Below, one piece after another: positions 20,320 through 28,394 of a stretch of DNA of 32,649 nucleotides. A program made the translations under genes and the position numbers. Source of the stretch: Dehalococcoidia bacterium (lineage in GTDB: Bacteria > Chloroflexota > Dehalococcoidia > Lucifugimonadales > Lucifugimonadaceae); NCBI GenBank assembly GCA_009693115.1, contig SHXW01000027.1:1-32649 (forward strand), written 5' to 3'. Each line of letters begins with the position of its first letter. Within the stretch, counting starts at the first letter, position 1. The notes beneath the pieces are model-generated. The model was not told the origin of the DNA and made no database searches. It saw nothing but the letters and a program-made list of their open reading frames with translations.

Positions 20320-21327
20320 ATGAACACACGCGCCGCAAAAGCAAAACCAAAGGCCCACGTCAACGGGGCCAACGATAAGCAGGAGTTTCTCGAGCTGTAC
20401 CGGCAGATGTGTCTGATCCGTCAGTTCGAGGAAGCCTGCGGCGAACAGTACTCCCGTGGCAATATCCGCGGCTTCCTTCACCTCTACATTGGCCAGGAAG
20501 CGATTGCCGCCGGCGTCATGCGCTCGCTGCGCGCTGAAGATTACGTCGTTACCCACTATCGGGACCACGGACACGCCCTTGCCCGAGGGCTGGACACCAA
20601 CCGCGTGATGGCGGAGCTCTTCGGGCGCGCCACCGGCCTGAGCAAAGGCAAGGGCGGATCAATGCACATCTTCGACGCCGCGAAGGGATTCATGGGGGGA
20701 CACGCCATCGTCGGGGGCCAGTTGCCGCTCGCAGCCGGGCTCGCCCTCGCCTGCCAGTACAAGGGGACGGGCGGCATTGCCGTCGTGTTCTTCGGTGATG
20801 GCGCTGTGAACCAGGGCGTATTCCACGAGACCATGAACCTGGCGGCTATCTGGGACCTGCCCCTGCTTTTCTTTCTTGAGAACAACCTGTACGGCATGGG
20901 CACGGCCGCGGAGCGCACACGCGCCGGCGGCGTGGACATTTACCCCATAGCCGGGAGCTACGGGATAGAAGCTGCGATGATCGACGGCATGGACGTGCTG
21001 GCGGTCAGGGAAGCCACCGGCGAGGCGGTAAAAAAGATACGCGCAGGTGAAGGGCCGAAGTTCATCGAAGCCAAGACCTACCGCTTCCATGGCCACTCGA
21101 TGGCGGACCCGGCCCGTTATCGCGATCACGCAGAACTTGATTACTGGCTTTCGCGCGACCCGTTGAAGTCGTTCCCAAAGATGATGCTGGACCGCGAGTT
21201 GGCTACCGCGGAAGAGTTGGCCGTCGTCCGCAAATCCGCCGATGATGAGGTTGCTTCCGCAGTCAAGTTCTCACTCGAAAGCCCACCTCCCGCCAAGAGC
21301 GAACTATTTACAGACGTTTACGCCTGA
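20320..21327 (+). CDS. pdhA: Pyruvate-type dehydrogenase complex E1 component, alpha subunit
   Basis: 335 residues. With the beta subunit it decarboxylates a 2-oxo acid on thiamine diphosphate and reductively acylates the E2 lipoyl group. The ThDP motif is GDG at 159-161 with NN at 188-189, bracketing AVNQGVFHETMNLA. THYRDHGHAL, KGKGGSMHIF and YRFHGHSMADPARYR are typical of PDH and acetoin-dehydrogenase E1alpha chains. The first 20 residues are a Lys/Ala-rich extension. The start has no strong ribosome site; an overlapping ATG four bases earlier is out of frame. It heads an operon with E1beta 22 bases downstream. Acetoin dehydrogenase (acoA) is an alternative. Confidence 0.92.
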   Translation: MNTRAAKAKPKAHVNGANDKQEFLELYRQMCLIRQFEEACGEQYSRGNIRGFLHLYIGQEAIAAGVMRSLRAEDYVVTHYRDHGHALARGLDTNRVMAELFGRATGLSKGKGGSMHIFDAAKGFMGGHAIVGGQLPLAAGLALACQYKGTGGIAVVFFGDGAVNQGVFHETMNLAAIWDLPLLFFLENNLYGMGTAAERTRAGGVDIYPIAGSYGIEAAMIDGMDVLAVREATGEAVKKIRAGEGPKFIEAKTYRFHGHSMADPARYRDHAELDYWLSRDPLKSFPKMMLDRELATAEELAVVRKSADDEVASAVKFSLESPPPAKSELFTDVYA

Positions 21328-21349
21328 GCTTGGGCCGCGGGAGTGCCAA

Positions 21350-22327
21350 ATGGCAGAACTCACGATCAGACAGGCTATACAGCGCGGCCTAGAAGAGGCC
21401 CTGCAGAACGACCCGAACGTCTTCATCATGGGTGAGGACATCGGCAAGTACGGCGGGGCCTACGCGGTCACATCGGGGTTCCTAGAAAAATACGGCCCCA
21501 AGCGCATCAAGGACACGCCGATTTCCGAGGCCACGTTCATCGGGGCGGGTGTTGGCGCGGCCGCCGCCGGCTTGAGGCCCGTGATCGAGATAATGTCCAT
21601 CAGCTTCTCACTGGTGGCCTTCGACCAGATCGTCAATATGGCCGCCAACCTGCGGTACATGTCAGGCGGGCAGATCAAGGTACCCATGGTCATCCGCGCC
21701 CCTACGGGTGCGGGTGCCCAACTTGCCGCTACCCATTCCCAGAGCTTCGAGACCTGGCTGGCGGAAGTGCCGGGTATCAAGTGCGTGGCACCGTCCACAC
21801 CGGCCGACGCGCTCGGCCTGCTGCGTTCTGCCCTGAGCGACGGCAACACCGTCATATTCGCAGAGCCGGCGCAGATGTACGGAGTCAAGGGAGACGTGCC
21901 GGACGGCCGCTTCACAGTGCCCATCGGCAAGGCCTCGGTTCAGCGCTCAGGCGGAGACGTAACGTTGGTCTCGTACGGCCACGGAATGCGCGTCCTGCAC
22001 AGTGCTGCTGAAGATCTGGCGAAGCGCGGCATCGAAGCCGAAGTCGTAGACTTGCGGTCTCTGAGCCCGCTGGACATGGACACCATAGTCGCGTCGGTTC
22101 ACAAGACCAACCGCGCACTCACCCTCGATATGGCCCGCCGTACGGGTGGCATCATGGCGGAAGTGGCCGCCCGCCTCCAGGAAGCGGCTTCGGACTGGCT
22201 TGACGGCCCGGTGGCGCGCGTAGGCGCTGAAGATGTCCCCTGGCCATACAACCGGGAACTTGAGCAGGAGGCCCTCCCCCGCGTCGAAGACGTGCTCGCC
22301 TCTCTCAAGAAGTCGTACGGCATTTAG
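21350..22327 (+). CDS. pdhB: Pyruvate-type dehydrogenase complex E1 component, beta subunit
   Basis: 325 residues, the standard length. The chain pairs with E1alpha to form the ThDP site; MGEDIGKYGGAYAVTSGF and TPISEATFIGAGVGAA (with the conserved Glu) are family signatures, and the C-terminal transketolase domain has VSYGHGMRV and VVDLRSLSPLDMDTI. CGGGAG lies six to seven bases before the ATG at 21350. A longer frame from 21242 would overlap pdhA and is not conserved. It is followed by about 180 bases before the E2 gene, with a small hairpin (GTCAGA/TCTGAC, 22366-22382). Confidence 0.93.
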   Translation: MAELTIRQAIQRGLEEALQNDPNVFIMGEDIGKYGGAYAVTSGFLEKYGPKRIKDTPISEATFIGAGVGAAAAGLRPVIEIMSISFSLVAFDQIVNMAANLRYMSGGQIKVPMVIRAPTGAGAQLAATHSQSFETWLAEVPGIKCVAPSTPADALGLLRSALSDGNTVIFAEPAQMYGVKGDVPDGRFTVPIGKASVQRSGGDVTLVSYGHGMRVLHSAAEDLAKRGIEAEVVDLRSLSPLDMDTIVASVHKTNRALTLDMARRTGGIMAEVAARLQEAASDWLDGPVARVGAEDVPWPYNRELEQEALPRVEDVLASLKKSYGI

Positions 22328-22505
22328 GGCCAACCATTGCGGTAATCGCCTCTTGAAGACGCTGTGTCAGAATCAGTCTGACGGATCCCACCCGGAGGCG
22401 GCGAGATTGTGTACTCTCTAACCCTGTCACTGTCTTCTGTTTGCAATGTCATCAGCGGTCGGACGTACCTGACAAGCGCGCCCGCCGCCGTCTGGAGGAA
22501 TTGAA

Positions 22506-23801
22506 TTGGCTACCAGAGTGACCATGCCCAGCATGGGCGCGGACATGACCGAGGGGACAGTTGCCAGGTGGCTCAAGAAAGAGGGCGAGGCCGTCAAGCG
22601 CGGCGACAAGATGGCCGAGATCGAGACAGACAAAACCGTCGTCGAGATGGAGGCCTACGCTGATGGCACCCTCCTGAAGGTTCTCGTGCCGGAAGGCCGC
22701 AAGGTCCCCGTGGGACAGCTCATCGCATGGCTGGGCCAGCCGGGGGAAAAGGTGCCGGAAGAGTCGGGCGCGCCCGCCGGACCTCTCGGGCCAGCCGCCC
22801 GCCCTGCTGCCCCACCGCCTACTTCCGCTTCGGCACCCTCTCCTGTTGCTACACGGCTAGCTGCCGCGTCAGCTCCCATGCCAGCGCGGCCGACACCCCC
22901 ATCCCCCCCACCCACTCCGGTAACGGAAGATGGCGACCGCACAAAGGCATCGCCCATCGCCCGTAAACTCGCAGAAGAGCAGGGCATAGACATATCAAAG
23001 GTCGTCGGCACGGGCCCAGGCGGGCGCATCACCCGTGATGATGTCCTGAACTACAAGCCCGCTCCGTCCCTGCCCTCTTCCTCGATAAACCGGCCGGCGC
23101 CGAAAGTCATCGCGCAGGACATCCCTCTCACGAGCATGAGGCAGGCCATCGCACGGGTCACCGTCCGCTCAAAAACCGAGGCTCCGCACTTCTACGTCAC
23201 TGTCGCCGTTGACATGACCGACACCATGAAATTCCGCCAGCACCTGAACGAGGCTCTGGCCGAATCCGGCATCAAGGTGTCAGTCAACGACATGATCATC
23301 AAGGCGTCTGTGAACTCAATCCTCAAGCACCCCAAGTTCAACACTTCGTTTGCCGGCGACAAGCTTCAGGGCCACGCGGACATCAACATCGGCATTGCTA
23401 TTGCGCTGGAGCAGGGGCTGATCGTGCCTGCGCTATTAAAGTGCCAGGGTAAAAGCGTAGTCGAGTTGTCCACAATGGCGCGTGACCTGGGTAACCGCGC
23501 ACGCGGCAAGGGCGGCACGCTGAGCCAGCAGGAGCTTACGCAGGGCACGTTCGGCATCTCCAACCTGGGAATGTTCGATGTTGTGAGCTTCGCCGCGATC
23601 ATCGTCCCCGGACAGGCTGCCATTCTCGCGACAGGAACAGTCAAGAAGACGCCCGTCGTCAAGGGCGGCGAAATCGAAGTGGCAGACATCATGCATGCAA
23701 CGCTCTCGTGTGACCACCGCGTGGCGGACGGCGCCGAAGGCGCTGTATTCCTGACCGAAATCAAGCGCAACCTGGAGAACCCTGCCCTTCTGATGGTGTA
23801 G
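22506..23801 (+). CDS. pdhC: Dihydrolipoamide acyltransferase (E2)
   Basis: 431 residues. It carries acyl groups from E1 to CoA. The single lipoyl domain (1-80) has the lipoyl-Lys K43 in EIETDKTVVE. A Pro/Ala linker (about 82-145) leads to the peripheral-subunit-binding domain (148-184: ASPIARKLAEEQGID, GTGPGGRITRDDV). The catalytic trimer-forming domain ends with the SCDHRVADGAEG active site (HxxxDG). The start is TTG at 22506 with GGAGG at 22494-22498 and a seven-base spacer. No E3 gene follows in the window, so a shared dihydrolipoamide dehydrogenase elsewhere is implied. Confidence 0.94.
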   Translation: MATRVTMPSMGADMTEGTVARWLKKEGEAVKRGDKMAEIETDKTVVEMEAYADGTLLKVLVPEGRKVPVGQLIAWLGQPGEKVPEESGAPAGPLGPAARPAAPPPTSASAPSPVATRLAAASAPMPARPTPPSPPPTPVTEDGDRTKASPIARKLAEEQGIDISKVVGTGPGGRITRDDVLNYKPAPSLPSSSINRPAPKVIAQDIPLTSMRQAIARVTVRSKTEAPHFYVTVAVDMTDTMKFRQHLNEALAESGIKVSVNDMIIKASVNSILKHPKFNTSFAGDKLQGHADINIGIAIALEQGLIVPALLKCQGKSVVELSTMARDLGNRARGKGGTLSQQELTQGTFGISNLGMFDVVSFAAIIVPGQAAILATGTVKKTPVVKGGEIEVADIMHATLSCDHRVADGAEGAVFLTEIKRNLENPALLMV

Positions 23802-23978: not shown

Positions 23979-25640
23979 ATGTATTCCTACTATCAGGAAC
24001 CCTTCACACCAGAAGAGGCAGCCGTCCTCGGCCGTTTCTTCACGAATACAGATCGCCCAGTGTTCGCACTCATCAACCTGCCCGAGGTCGTGAAGGGCGC
24101 TCTGTTCGCCCGCTACTCACGCAGCCCAAAATCGCTCCGCCGCCTGTTCCTTGACGAGTTCGTCGGCCACCCAGAGACAGGCATACAGGCTATTTCGGCC
24201 AGGCTCCCGCAGGAAGACCACACTGCGGCTCTTAAGCGCGCCGAAGGGCTGTACGAACGCGTCTTCTCCGAATATGGCGATGACTCTGTTGCCCAGCTCG
24301 GCGGCGCGCATCTGGCCTGCGAGCAGGCGTCGAACATCCTGACGAAAGTCCTGGAGTGGGGGCGACTGGGCGCATACCTCGAACAGAGCACCCGGTACAT
24401 CTATTACGACCGCAAGTTTGAATATCCCGACGGACGCAGGCAGTACCGCTATTTCGTCCCGCCGGAAATCGAGGCCGTCCCGGAACTCGCTGCCCGTTAT
24501 CAAGCCGACATGGATTGGCTTTTCGGCATGTATTCAGAGTTGGTGCGCGGGCTGACCGCCGAGCTTGAAAAACAGTTCCCTCTGGCTCCAGGAGATCCGA
24601 AGCCTGCGTGGGCCGCCGCCATCCGCGCAAAGGCATGCGACGCCGCTCGCGGGCTGCTGCCCGCTGCCACCCTTTCCAACCTGGGCATTTACGCCACCGG
24701 CCAGTCCTACGAGATGATGCTCCTGCGTATGCGGGTCCATCCGCTCCAGGAAGCGCGCGACTACGCAGACATGATGCTGTCTGAACTTCGTGAGGTGATC
24801 CCGGCCTTCCTCCGCCGCGTGGATGTTCCCGAGCGCGGCGGCGTCTGGTCAAAATATCTCGCTGATTCGGCACAAGCCACGCAGAGCATTGCCGCAAATA
24901 TCTCCAGCACCGGCCCTGCGTCTTCTGGTCCAGACGTGAAACTAGTCGAATGGGACCCAGAAGCCGAGACAAAGGTAGTGGCCGCTGCCCTCTTCCCTTA
25001 CTCAGATCTGCCTGATGACAGGCTGCTTGAGATAGCCGGAAGCATGTCCACCTCAGAGCGGGAACAGGTACTCAGGGGTTATGCCGGAGACCGCACGAAC
25101 CGCCGTCACAAGCCCGGACGCGCTTTTGAACGGACGTACTATCGCTTCGACATCCTGTGCGACTTCGGCGCGTTCCGTGACCTCCAGCGCCACCGCATGT
25201 TGACCATTGAATGGCAGCGCCTTGGCACAAAGCACGGGCATACGGAGTGGGAAGGGGCGCAGGATGCAGGCAGGCAGATGAATTGGGAAGCGGCAATGGC
25301 TCGTATGGCCTCGTTGCATGAAATCGTCGTAAACGCCTGCGGGGCGGAGGCCGCCCAGTACACAGTCCCGTTCGCCTACCGAGTCCGTTTCACGATGCAG
25401 CTAAACGCCCGCGAGGCCATGCACCTGCTTGAATTGAGAACATCGCCACAGGGACACGTCGGCTACCGTCGTGTATGTCAGGAGATGCACCGACTGATCC
25501 GAGACAAGGCCGGGCACAGGCTCATCGCCGACGCAATGAAGTTCGTGGACTACTCCGAACCGGGGCTGGAGCGTCTTGAGGCGGAAAAACGGTCTTTGGG
25601 CAAACGCCGGGCAGCCGGACAGGCAGACGCGCCGGAATAG
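23979..25640 (+). CDS. Two-domain ThyX-superfamily protein
   Basis: 553 residues, about twice the length of a ThyX flavin-dependent thymidylate synthase. Each half resembles one ThyX domain. The ThyX signature is RHRxxSxNxxSxRY. In the N-half the aligned stretch is WGRLGAYLEQSTRY (E135, S137 and R139), which keeps the second part but not RHR. In the C-half it is R404-H-R406-M-L-T-I-E-W-Q-R, which keeps RHR but not the later Ser/Asn residues. The C-half also has LELRTSPQGHVGYRRVCQEM, like the ThyX dUMP/FAD region. The start at 23979 fits the conserved N-terminus but has no strong ribosome site; TTGACA occurs at 23905-23910. Whether it makes dTMP is unknown; it may be a paralog with another flavin-linked role. 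Confidence 0.8.
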   Translation: MYSYYQEPFTPEEAAVLGRFFTNTDRPVFALINLPEVVKGALFARYSRSPKSLRRLFLDEFVGHPETGIQAISARLPQEDHTAALKRAEGLYERVFSEYGDDSVAQLGGAHLACEQASNILTKVLEWGRLGAYLEQSTRYIYYDRKFEYPDGRRQYRYFVPPEIEAVPELAARYQADMDWLFGMYSELVRGLTAELEKQFPLAPGDPKPAWAAAIRAKACDAARGLLPAATLSNLGIYATGQSYEMMLLRMRVHPLQEARDYADMMLSELREVIPAFLRRVDVPERGGVWSKYLADSAQATQSIAANISSTGPASSGPDVKLVEWDPEAETKVVAAALFPYSDLPDDRLLEIAGSMSTSEREQVLRGYAGDRTNRRHKPGRAFERTYYRFDILCDFGAFRDLQRHRMLTIEWQRLGTKHGHTEWEGAQDAGRQMNWEAAMARMASLHEIVVNACGAEAAQYTVPFAYRVRFTMQLNAREAMHLLELRTSPQGHVGYRRVCQEMHRLIRDKAGHRLIADAMKFVDYSEPGLERLEAEKRSLGKRRAAGQADAPE

Positions 25641-25658
25641 ATGTGAGCGCGCTATTCC

Positions 25659-25681
25659 CTCGCCAACCGGGAGAGGGCGAG
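25659..25681. repeat. Dispersed repeat, copy 6 (CTCGCC/GGCGAG)
   Basis: CTCGCC (25659-25664) and GGCGAG (25676-25681) around AACCGGGAGAG, about 20 bases after the ThyX-like gene. The TATTCCCTCGCC opening is close to that of the copy at 13458. Confidence 0.45.
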
Positions 25682-25729
25682 AGCATCACCCTGAACCAGA
25701 GCCGGTCATTTCAAGAAAGAATTTCGATC

Positions 25730-26098
25730 CTACGCCGCCACAGATTCTTCCCTGATGAACCTGACAATGGTCAACGGCGGACAGAAACCCAAAGTGAGCC
25801 CGAGTTTGTAATCGCGACAGATCCAGCCCGAACCGCCCAGTATGCCCACAGATGACTTCACCAGGTGGAAACCAGCACCGATTCCCGCAGGCCCATTCTC
25901 GATCTCATTGCATGCCCTGAAGAACAGCGTGGACAAGCATTCCTGATCGGCTTTCGGCAGTCCAATGGCGTGATCGCTCACACCGGCGCAATAGCTGCGC
26001 CGGAGCACCACGTGGATCCTCCGCCGCGACGAGTGAAGGCCACGATCCCATCAAGGGCTGGAAAAGGTCGCTCGCAAGTTGCAGACAGAGCCGGCTGA
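25730..26098 (-). pseudogene. Relic of a histidine-kinase C-terminal ATPase domain
   Basis: On the minus strand the translation shows decayed HATPase_c boxes: an N-box-like VCNLRATFSSP followed by an in-frame TGA stop, then a G1-box-like VSDHAIGLPKADQE, an F-box-like FFRACNE, and a G2-box-like GPAGIGAGFHLVKS, ending IVRFIREE. Key residues are lost (G1 DxGxG reads DHAIG; the G2 GTGLGL reads AGIGAG). Strand-like sequence DGIVAFTRRGG lies in another frame, so a frameshift is also probable. The kinase core upstream is gone, replaced by the end of the hydrolase gene at 26108. It fills most of the 466-base gap between two real genes. Confidence 0.6.
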
Positions 26099-26107
26099 CG
26101 CCTGTTC

Positions 26108-26980
26108 CTAGGCTCCAAGTCTGTCCTGAAGCCAGTGTTCCTGACTTTCATGATCCAGGTACCCGTAGCCGCTGTTGACCCGGGTTTCGCATTTCCCCTT
26201 GATGGCGCTCGCAAACGGTGCGGAAGGCGCAACATCAGACTTCAGACATGCAATCAGAGTTTCGGCCTTGATCTTCGGCGCAAAAGAAACCGGGTCATAT
26301 AGTTGGAGGGTTTCCGAAGCCTTCGGCCACTGGGACGGGTGCGTCCGCTTGAAGTCATTGAACTCCTGCAACGGGTAGTCGGAAATGGCGTCAAGTCGGC
26401 GCGGAGTATCTCGGAAGAGAAACTGCCCGTTGAAAAGTAGCACTTTCGTCTGCGGACGTAGCGCGGCACATATCGCAGCCACGTCGTTGCCTGCGATGCC
26501 GATCCGCGCCCTATCCACCTCAGGCCGGGCGAGCATCACGTCAAAGGAGCGGAGACTGTCTGCGACAATATCCCGCCACCGGAAGCTTCCGGCGTCAGGG
26601 AGGCCCTCTGTCATCAGACCAGGGTAGGCGGACTTGTACCCGCTATCCGACAGCCGCTGACCGCGGTGGCACACGGCCATCACCGCGTATTTCGCCCTGC
26701 GTTCCACACCGGGCACTCCCCTGACGCTGCCGTAGCCGGGCGTTTCGAGAAGCCCCGGAAATGGGCCTTTTCCCTTTGGGACCGAATAGTAGGCGAACAA
26801 CGGGTAACCGCCAACCCCTGCGAACCGGCAGGCATATACGGTTGACGACTCATTCGACCTGATCTTGATCTCTTCGAGTTCAGCTTTGCCTTTCGATATG
26901 GCTGCCGACTCATCGTCAACGAGCTTCCAGTATGACTCGAACGCGCTATTCAACTCTGAGCTTGGGGTTTTGGCGGTCAT
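26108..26980 (-). CDS. Alpha/beta-hydrolase of acetyl-xylan-esterase type with Asp at the nucleophile elbow
   Basis: 290 residues. It is related to the neighbouring AXE1-type hydrolase: shared landmarks are the YPGLMTEGLPD loop, the RWRDIVADSLRSFDVM helix and ARPEVDRARIGI. Where the neighbour has the Ser elbow GGSQGG, this protein has G164-N-D166-V-A168, which fits small-x-nucleophile-x-small with Asp as the nucleophile, as in dehalogenases and epoxide hydrolases. D249 (LKSDVAP) aligns with the neighbour's acid in LRDDVCP, and H277 (LDHESQ) is a candidate general base. The start at 26980 has GGAGG with a seven-base spacer and follows the upstream stop by one base, so translation is coupled. 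The activity could be hydrolysis by a different mechanism, or none. Confidence 0.8.
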   Translation of the reverse strand: MTAKTPSSELNSAFESYWKLVDDESAAISKGKAELEEIKIRSNESSTVYACRFAGVGGYPLFAYYSVPKGKGPFPGLLETPGYGSVRGVPGVERRAKYAVMAVCHRGQRLSDSGYKSAYPGLMTEGLPDAGSFRWRDIVADSLRSFDVMLARPEVDRARIGIAGNDVAAICAALRPQTKVLLFNGQFLFRDTPRRLDAISDYPLQEFNDFKRTHPSQWPKASETLQLYDPVSFAPKIKAETLIACLKSDVAPSAPFASAIKGKCETRVNSGYGYLDHESQEHWLQDRLGA

Positions 26981-26981
26981 G

Positions 26982-27959
26982 TCAGGGCCTCCTCACAGGC
27001 TCGGGCTGGAGCCGCTCGGCGAAAAACCGGTTCATGATCGGGTTGTGGCCTATGCCGCTCCCGGCATCATGCCCGCAGTTCTCGTAGGGGTAGAGTCGTT
27101 TGTCCTTGGAACCTATGGCGCTAAACAGTGCATACCCTGTCTCCGGCGGGCATACATCATCCCGGAGGCCTATGTTCACGATGATCGGGCAGGTGATCCT
27201 ACCCACAAAGTTATGGATGTCGTGGTAGTCCAATGCGATCCGCACCTTGTCTTTGCGGTCCGGGTGCAGGCGCAGGTAGTCGTTGATCTCCTCGTAGGGG
27301 TACGAGCGAGTAAGCGATGCGGCGTCCAACATCGAGCAGAGATAGGGAGCGCCCGCAGACGCGGCCTTCACCCGATCTGGTCTCAACGATGCCACCAGCA
27401 GTGTCAAGGCGCCGCCCTGGCTTCCCCCTTGCACACCAATGCGGGCCGGATCCACTTCCGGAAGACCCACAAGAAAATCGAATGCACGGACGGCATCCAC
27501 GTAAAAACCGCGGTATCCATAGGTCTCGTGGTTGTCCATGTTGTGGGTCAGAAGACCGGGGTAACCAGGATTGAAGTCGGAGTTGCTGCGAAGCTTACCC
27601 CTGGGAGCGGCTGAAAACGTCGCATAGCCCATCATGGCCAGATCTGTGGGCAGCTTCGGCTCGCTTACATAGCCGGGAACAAAGAGCATCCCAGGTAACT
27701 TCCCCTTGTGAACGCGCGGCCTGCAGTACCAACCGGCAATTTCGAGCCCGCCGTAGCTGTCATAGCGCGCCTCGAAGACCTCGACCTCAGGAGTCGAGCG
27801 CATAGGCACAGGCGTCAGGCGAGGGTTGAGCGGGACCCTTTCCGTGGCAGCAAGCGTCTTCTCCCAGAAACGGTCGAAATCAGCGGGCTTGGTGACGCTG
27901 CTCTTCCAGACACTTGGGTCCGCAGTGGGCGTGTAGGTTTTGGGGATGGCTGTTGTAAT
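26982..27959 (-). CDS. AXE1-family alpha/beta-hydrolase (acetyl-xylan/cephalosporin-C deacetylase-like)
   Basis: 325 residues from an ATT codon. The nucleophile elbow is GGSQGG, followed by the acid in GLRDDVCPP and the His in CGHDAGSG, so the triad is complete. YDSYGGLEIAGWYCRP and HNMDNHETYGYRG are typical of the family. The N-terminal segment KPADFDRFWEKTLAATERVPLNP is conserved in AXE1 proteins but lies upstream of the first standard start (GTG at 27809). The frame stays open to an ATT at 27957-27959 that has GGAGGAG seven bases upstream, and this gives full family length. It is the first gene of a two-gene unit. It probably deacylates a small ester substrate in the cytoplasm; no signal peptide is seen. 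Confidence 0.85.
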   Translation of the reverse strand: MTTAIPKTYTPTADPSVWKSSVTKPADFDRFWEKTLAATERVPLNPRLTPVPMRSTPEVEVFEARYDSYGGLEIAGWYCRPRVHKGKLPGMLFVPGYVSEPKLPTDLAMMGYATFSAAPRGKLRSNSDFNPGYPGLLTHNMDNHETYGYRGFYVDAVRAFDFLVGLPEVDPARIGVQGGSQGGALTLLVASLRPDRVKAASAGAPYLCSMLDAASLTRSYPYEEINDYLRLHPDRKDKVRIALDYHDIHNFVGRITCPIIVNIGLRDDVCPPETGYALFSAIGSKDKRLYPYENCGHDAGSGIGHNPIMNRFFAERLQPEPVRRP

Positions 27960-27973
27960 GTGCGTTCTCCTCC
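27957..27973 (-). promoter_or_regulatory. Ribosome binding site pointing to an ATT start
   Basis: GGAGGAG (27967-27973) with a seven-base spacer to ATT (27957-27959), in frame with the full-length esterase. No ATG, GTG or TTG occurs in frame for the next 50 codons, although those codons encode conserved AXE1 sequence. Confidence 0.6.
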
Positions 27974-28167
27974 GGATCGGACATGAACATCGTCAGCAGC
28001 GCCAGTCGGCACGTTATACCGGAGGAGCAACGCGGCGTCAACGACTGTGCCGCGTCTAGCCGCCTGTCAGGTCGAAGTTGGCAGGTCCTCCCCCGCCTTC
28101 AAGCGCTCTCCTCGCAATGGACGCTATCAATGGACGACCCAGTACCCGGATAGTAATTCGTCGCACC

Positions 28168-28394
28168 ACCAGCCATCAGCGGCATGGCGGCCGTCAGCCC
28201 AATCAGGTATCCAGCAGTGCTCACATGTGGCGGTCCATTTCACTTACTGGCAATCAGTGGGCGCTCAAGGCCTTCGGCAGCGACGCCACGATGATTGTCT
28301 GTTCCGTCGCACCTGCGAAGCCTATTGCGCAGAAGATCAGCCACATGAGGTACGGGCGGGTGGAGGACGCTGATCCTACGAACGCCACATAGAT
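28168..28394 (-). pseudogene. Relic of an MFS transporter N-terminus
   Basis: The minus strand encodes YLMWLIFCAIGFAGATEQTI followed by IVASLPKALSAH, like helix 1 of drug/metabolite MFS carriers with its DQTIV..ALP motif. A TGA (28254-28256) and a second in-frame TGA (28221-28223) interrupt it. After a frameshift, AGYLIGLTAAMPLMAG resembles helix 2. Nothing beyond helix 2 is recognisable. It lies in a 500-base gap upstream of the two hydrolases and is distinct from the MFS pair at 10184-12729. The rest of the gap shows nothing. Confidence 0.55.

Follow-up and report, generated by a model that had tools for sequence, protein, structure and literature searches.

An AXE1/CE7 esterase gene of Chloroflexota is paired with a paralog lacking the catalytic triad, a probable pseudoenzyme subunit

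A stretch of 32,649 nucleotides from a Dehalococcoidia bacterium (contig SHXW01000027.1; the window) carries two adjacent paralogs of the acetyl xylan esterase (AXE1/CE7) family. The upstream gene, B, encodes a canonical esterase, and the downstream gene, A, encodes a protein with the CE7 fold but without the catalytic triad. Most likely, several Chloroflexota classes have a hetero-oligomeric CE7 esterase in which A is the pseudoenzyme subunit. We assign a probability of about 0.62 to the reading that A is a non-catalytic subunit in a mixed CE7-type ring with B, that only B hydrolyses the substrate, and that D166 of A, at the former nucleophile elbow, is not a nucleophile. The retention of A beside B, together with their fusion in one genus, suggests such a non-catalytic partner and not a second unusual enzyme.

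The open reading frame of A was confirmed at 26108–26980 on the minus strand (290 aa). It matches the Pfam model PF05448 (AXE1) with an E-value of 1.2e-21 and 77.2 bits, where the curated cut-off is 21 bits, and the source genome has no AXE1 match other than A and B. Against NCBIfam, A gave no match and B gave only weak matches below the cut-offs. The predicted structure of A, built from 16 homologs, is a complete CE7 fold (pLDDT 87.4), aligning to 1l7a over 277 residues with a Z score of 31.3 and an rmsd of 2.3. The reference structures for this acetyl xylan esterase/cephalosporin C deacetylase fold (PF05448) were those of B. subtilis (1l7a/1ods), T. maritima TM0077 (1vlq/5fdf) and Paenibacillus PbAcE (6agq). 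The fold is common to A over nearly the whole chain, including the N-terminal extension and the interface loop between strand 99–103 and helix 134–150. Unlike the CE7 enzymes, A has no GGSQGG elbow, no acid, no base and no His loop, and its elbow helix is shorter. Because A scores above the AXE1 cut-off, it would be annotated as an acetyl xylan esterase and so inflate carbohydrate esterase counts, a likely mis-annotation that the present analysis corrects.

Gene B, at 26982–27959 on the minus strand (26982–27809 in the ORF list), matches PF05448 with an E-value of 2e-49 and 168.6 bits and, like the known CE7 enzymes, has an intact triad. Its GGSQGG motif occupies residues 128–133 of the listed ORF, with the nucleophile Ser codon at 27420–27422; the acid Asp (GLRD) is encoded at 27159–27161 and the base His (CGHD) at 27069–27071. 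Across 87 B sequences the GxSQGG motif and the triad are intact, with columns of 100% Ser, 100% Asp and 99% His. The open frame of B runs upstream of the listed GTG with homology continuing there, and this, together with a GGAGGAG ribosome-binding site at 27967–27973, places the start further upstream. The homologous start has no ATG, GTG or TTG, and an ATT, a rare start codon, is found instead at 27957–27959, 7 bases from this strong ribosome-binding site. Unless a base there is an assembly error, B probably starts at this ATT (27959) and is about 325 aa long. A promoter scan of 25650–28250 found nothing; a TTGACG-17-TATAAC pair upstream of B, spotted by eye, fails the rule used in that scan.

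Genomes with a match made up 128 of the 250 from the same order. The extracted set contained 90 distinct sequences of A and 91 of B. A single-protein scan of the named-genome collection gave one locus, from an uncultured Dehalococcoidia. The class-level search did not find the pair outside the order, and the phylum-level search recovered A/B pairs in other Chloroflexota classes. These classes, which share the conserved pair, are mostly uncultured.

The joint alignment comprised 80 A sequences of the type found in the window (D-type), 8 of a second type with GxGLGG at the elbow (GxGLG-type) and the 87 B sequences. In D-type A all three catalytic columns of B are lost: the Ser column is a gap, the acid Asp column holds mixed residues and the His column is mostly Tyr. 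The nucleophile motif GxSQGG is likewise absent, and in its place stands G-N-D with a four-residue deletion. Of the two readings in the initial annotation, that of a possibly non-catalytic second protein is the one supported. In GxGLG-type A the Ser is replaced by Gly, and the acid Asp and His columns are kept. This type, seen at loci L055, L057/L155, L065, L066, L070, L159, L160 and L014, has a separate clade of B as its partner; G191 and G192 are among the genomes that carry both types of pair, at different loci.

In a quick tree with some long branches, A forms one clade (SH-aLRT 99) whose inner groups mirror those of B, and the dead and live paralogs are inherited together. Among close pairs, dN/dS was 0.04–0.21 for A (all pairs) and 0.03–0.25 for B, as obtained by a simple counting method with dS often high; A evolves faster than B, but under purifying selection. 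The frame is intact in the relatives, and on this ground and the dN/dS values a recent pseudogene was rejected.

The sequence G164-N165-D166-V167-A168, with the D166 codon at 26483–26485, replaces the elbow in A. The ORF, this segment, D249, H277 and the adjacent GGSQGG paralog are all where the initial annotation placed them. In the model of A, strand 155–164 corresponds to the strand carrying the CE7 nucleophile; a single turn residue, N165, links it to helix 166–174, which begins at D166, so D166 would sit at the elbow site. The position is acidic in all 80 D-type A of the order (Asp in 71, Glu in 9) and in 11 of 12 A from other Chloroflexota, the remaining one (L169) having Gly. The elbow of A is, however, four residues shorter than that of B, the Ser-Gln-Gly-Gly of B has no counterpart, and D166 can be aligned either to the Ser or to Ser+4, each placement matching one Gly. 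Judged from the alignment, D166 is not a simple Ser-to-Asp swap. The idea of an Asp at the nucleophile elbow holds as regards its conservation and its modelled position at the elbow junction, but not as a direct substitution.

A model of the natural B-A fusion described below agrees with this placement. In the B half, the nucleophile S171 is the turn residue between strand 160–170 and helix 172–183; in the A half, S483 is the turn residue between strand 473–482 and helix 484–492, which starts at E484, the counterpart of D166. By the secondary structure of the models, the nucleophile turn slot in A is taken by the variable residue that precedes the acidic one, and the elbow helix of A is about one turn shorter. 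Two A proteins (L010:248-1111 and L048) have SGPN at the elbow and the same length there as B; the tree suggests that this is a secondary insertion.

Haloalkane dehalogenases and epoxide hydrolases are α/β hydrolases with an Asp nucleophile, in which the His base and the acid are also conserved. A resembles them in having an acidic residue at or beside the elbow turn, and its near-invariance, together with D276 in 79 of 79 sequences, is what would favour an active hydrolase of this kind with Asp/Glu 166 as nucleophile. Unlike them, A has no conserved His base or acid. D249 (codon 26234–26236), described initially as a retained acid, is Asp in 10 of the 80 D-type A, alongside Gly in 38, Glu in 16 and Ser in 8, as against 100% Asp in the acid column of B. 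H277 (encoded with D276 at 26150–26155), taken for a retained base, lies in a column with His in 22 of 80 and Gly in 52, and the invariant catalytic His of B falls opposite Y274 of A. The loop that bears this His has about 12 residues in B and 5 in the A half of the fusion. Among 12 A proteins from other classes, the H277 column has His in 3; two of the 12 (L175 and L176, from another Chloroflexota class) stop short of the final strand and helix, and the D276/H277 region is absent from them. Conservation and modelling thus bear out D166 as conserved and near the elbow, and do not bear out H277.

Further points against catalysis by residue 166 are the Glu in 9 of 80 sequences, the Gly in L169, the missing Gln of Ser+1 together with the elbow deletion, and the placement of the acidic residue, in both models, as first residue of the helix with the preceding residue forming the turn. 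An Asp-nucleophile mechanism for A was rejected on conservation, and we regard it as very improbable. The proposal that the pair combines two mechanisms on one substrate is not supported: the triad partners of A are not conserved, Glu stands for Asp in 9 of 80 sequences, the Gln that follows the Ser of B is absent, and the sister subtype has Gly in place of the Ser.

The genes are arranged so that A lies directly downstream of B. One base separates the B stop codon (26982–26984) from the ATG of A (26980), and the GAGGAGG ribosome-binding site of A (26988–26994) lies within the end of B. The order B then A on the same strand was found at 121 of 128 A-bearing loci, a figure that does not represent independent events because loci overlap. 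The seven exceptions are two contig starts (L012 and L036), two fusion pieces (L024 and L049), L135 and G156, where B and A are separated by gaps of 0.9 kb and 2.6 kb respectively, and G096, which has no B within 8 kb upstream of A.

Six genomes, all of one genus, have B and A joined in a single 612-codon frame, which gives 609 aa when read from its ATG. The six fusions are equal in length and 70–96% identical, with a linker near residues 310–330. L024 and L049 are two further fusions that are cut by contig ends. The model of the fusion contains two CE7 domains with a pTM of 0.78, which is higher than would be expected for two unplaced domains.

CE7 enzymes are hexamers with their active sites toward a central tunnel, and their dimer interface is the β5-α4 loop (PMC6209228). 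Residues 104–133 of A (RGQR...PGLxT; 26582–26671), between strand 99–103 and helix 134–150, match this loop. Within it, R109 is invariant in D-type A (80 of 80) and position 117 is Ala in 95% of D-type A and Ser in the protein of the window. Among the positions conserved in both subtypes of A and different in B are R109 and A117 in the interface loop, and V86, A140, L204 and W283 elsewhere.

From the loss of the catalytic residues, the positions conserved specifically in A, the fixed gene order and the fusion we infer that A is a non-catalytic subunit acting with B. On this reading B is an AXE1/CE7-family esterase of the ordinary Ser-His-Asp kind, and A is an ancient duplicate that retained the CE7 fold and lost the catalytic residues. 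The two proteins would be made together from one operon and assemble as a mixed CE7-type ring in which B alone hydrolyses, with A shaping, gating or stabilising the cavity that they share. D166, where the shortened helix begins, may have a structural role or contact a ligand, perhaps together with R109 and D276.

The loss of the catalytic columns with persistence of the fold and of purifying selection would also fit a protein that works by itself, for example in ligand binding or as a carrier, adjacent to B for co-expression and forming no complex with it. The 2.6 kb between A and B in G156 and the lack of a nearby B in G096 are in line with such a role, and G096 also counts against the mixed ring. 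Fusion and adjacency could also arise from shared regulation alone, and interface loops are conserved in homo-oligomers as well, which likewise weakens the case for the mixed ring. An independent A accounts poorly, however, for an equal-length fusion fixed in six genomes, for the fixed order and near-zero spacing, and for A-specific conservation located in the oligomer interface loop, and we consider it unlikely.

A chemical role for A is possible because the near-invariance of D/E166 and D276 exceeds the needs of a mere scaffold. D166, D276 and R109 might form a new polar site in the emptied pocket, such as a metal site, a carboxylate pair or a substrate anchor, used in binding or in new acid-base chemistry and possibly presenting substrate to B. 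The three positions are conserved not only in D-type A, as given above, but also in the other classes (D166 in 11 of 12, D276 in 10 of 10 and R109 in 12 of 12). Both acids are nevertheless predicted to lie at helix starts, where Asp and Glu are favoured for capping, and GxGLG-type A lacks both acids yet keeps R109. We judge such a site distinctly improbable. The version in which the D/E166-R109-D276 site of A cooperates with the serine site of B across a shared cavity, in a mixed ring or in the fusion, strikes us as similarly doubtful.

The preferred arrangement, a mixed ring of A and B, differs from the known CE7 enzymes, which are described as hexamers of one chain type (PMC6209228). A literature search that covered few subscription papers found no such active/dead pair described for CE7. 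Should A and B prove to act as one complex, the CE7 esterases would include one that has a dedicated dead subunit. ClpP/ClpR and the mixed proteasome β subunits are assemblies of active and inactive paralogs. The A/B pair is like them in that a live chain and a dead paralog are kept together and would be expected in one ring, and unlike them in that we infer the assembly, its geometry and the contribution of A. The natural fusion makes the pairing directly testable with one construct.

The neighbouring genes were also considered as a source for the function of the pair. Pyruvate dehydrogenase and ThyX genes, with ECF sigma/anti-sigma genes, lie near it at some loci, and iPGM-like, DUF192 and epimerase genes at others. 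Because the surroundings differ among loci, no pathway could be read from them. In the window itself, 23979–25640 encodes a 553-aa protein of the ThyX family that matches the Thy1 model in two stretches, and this gene adjoins a pyruvate dehydrogenase operon (20320–23801).
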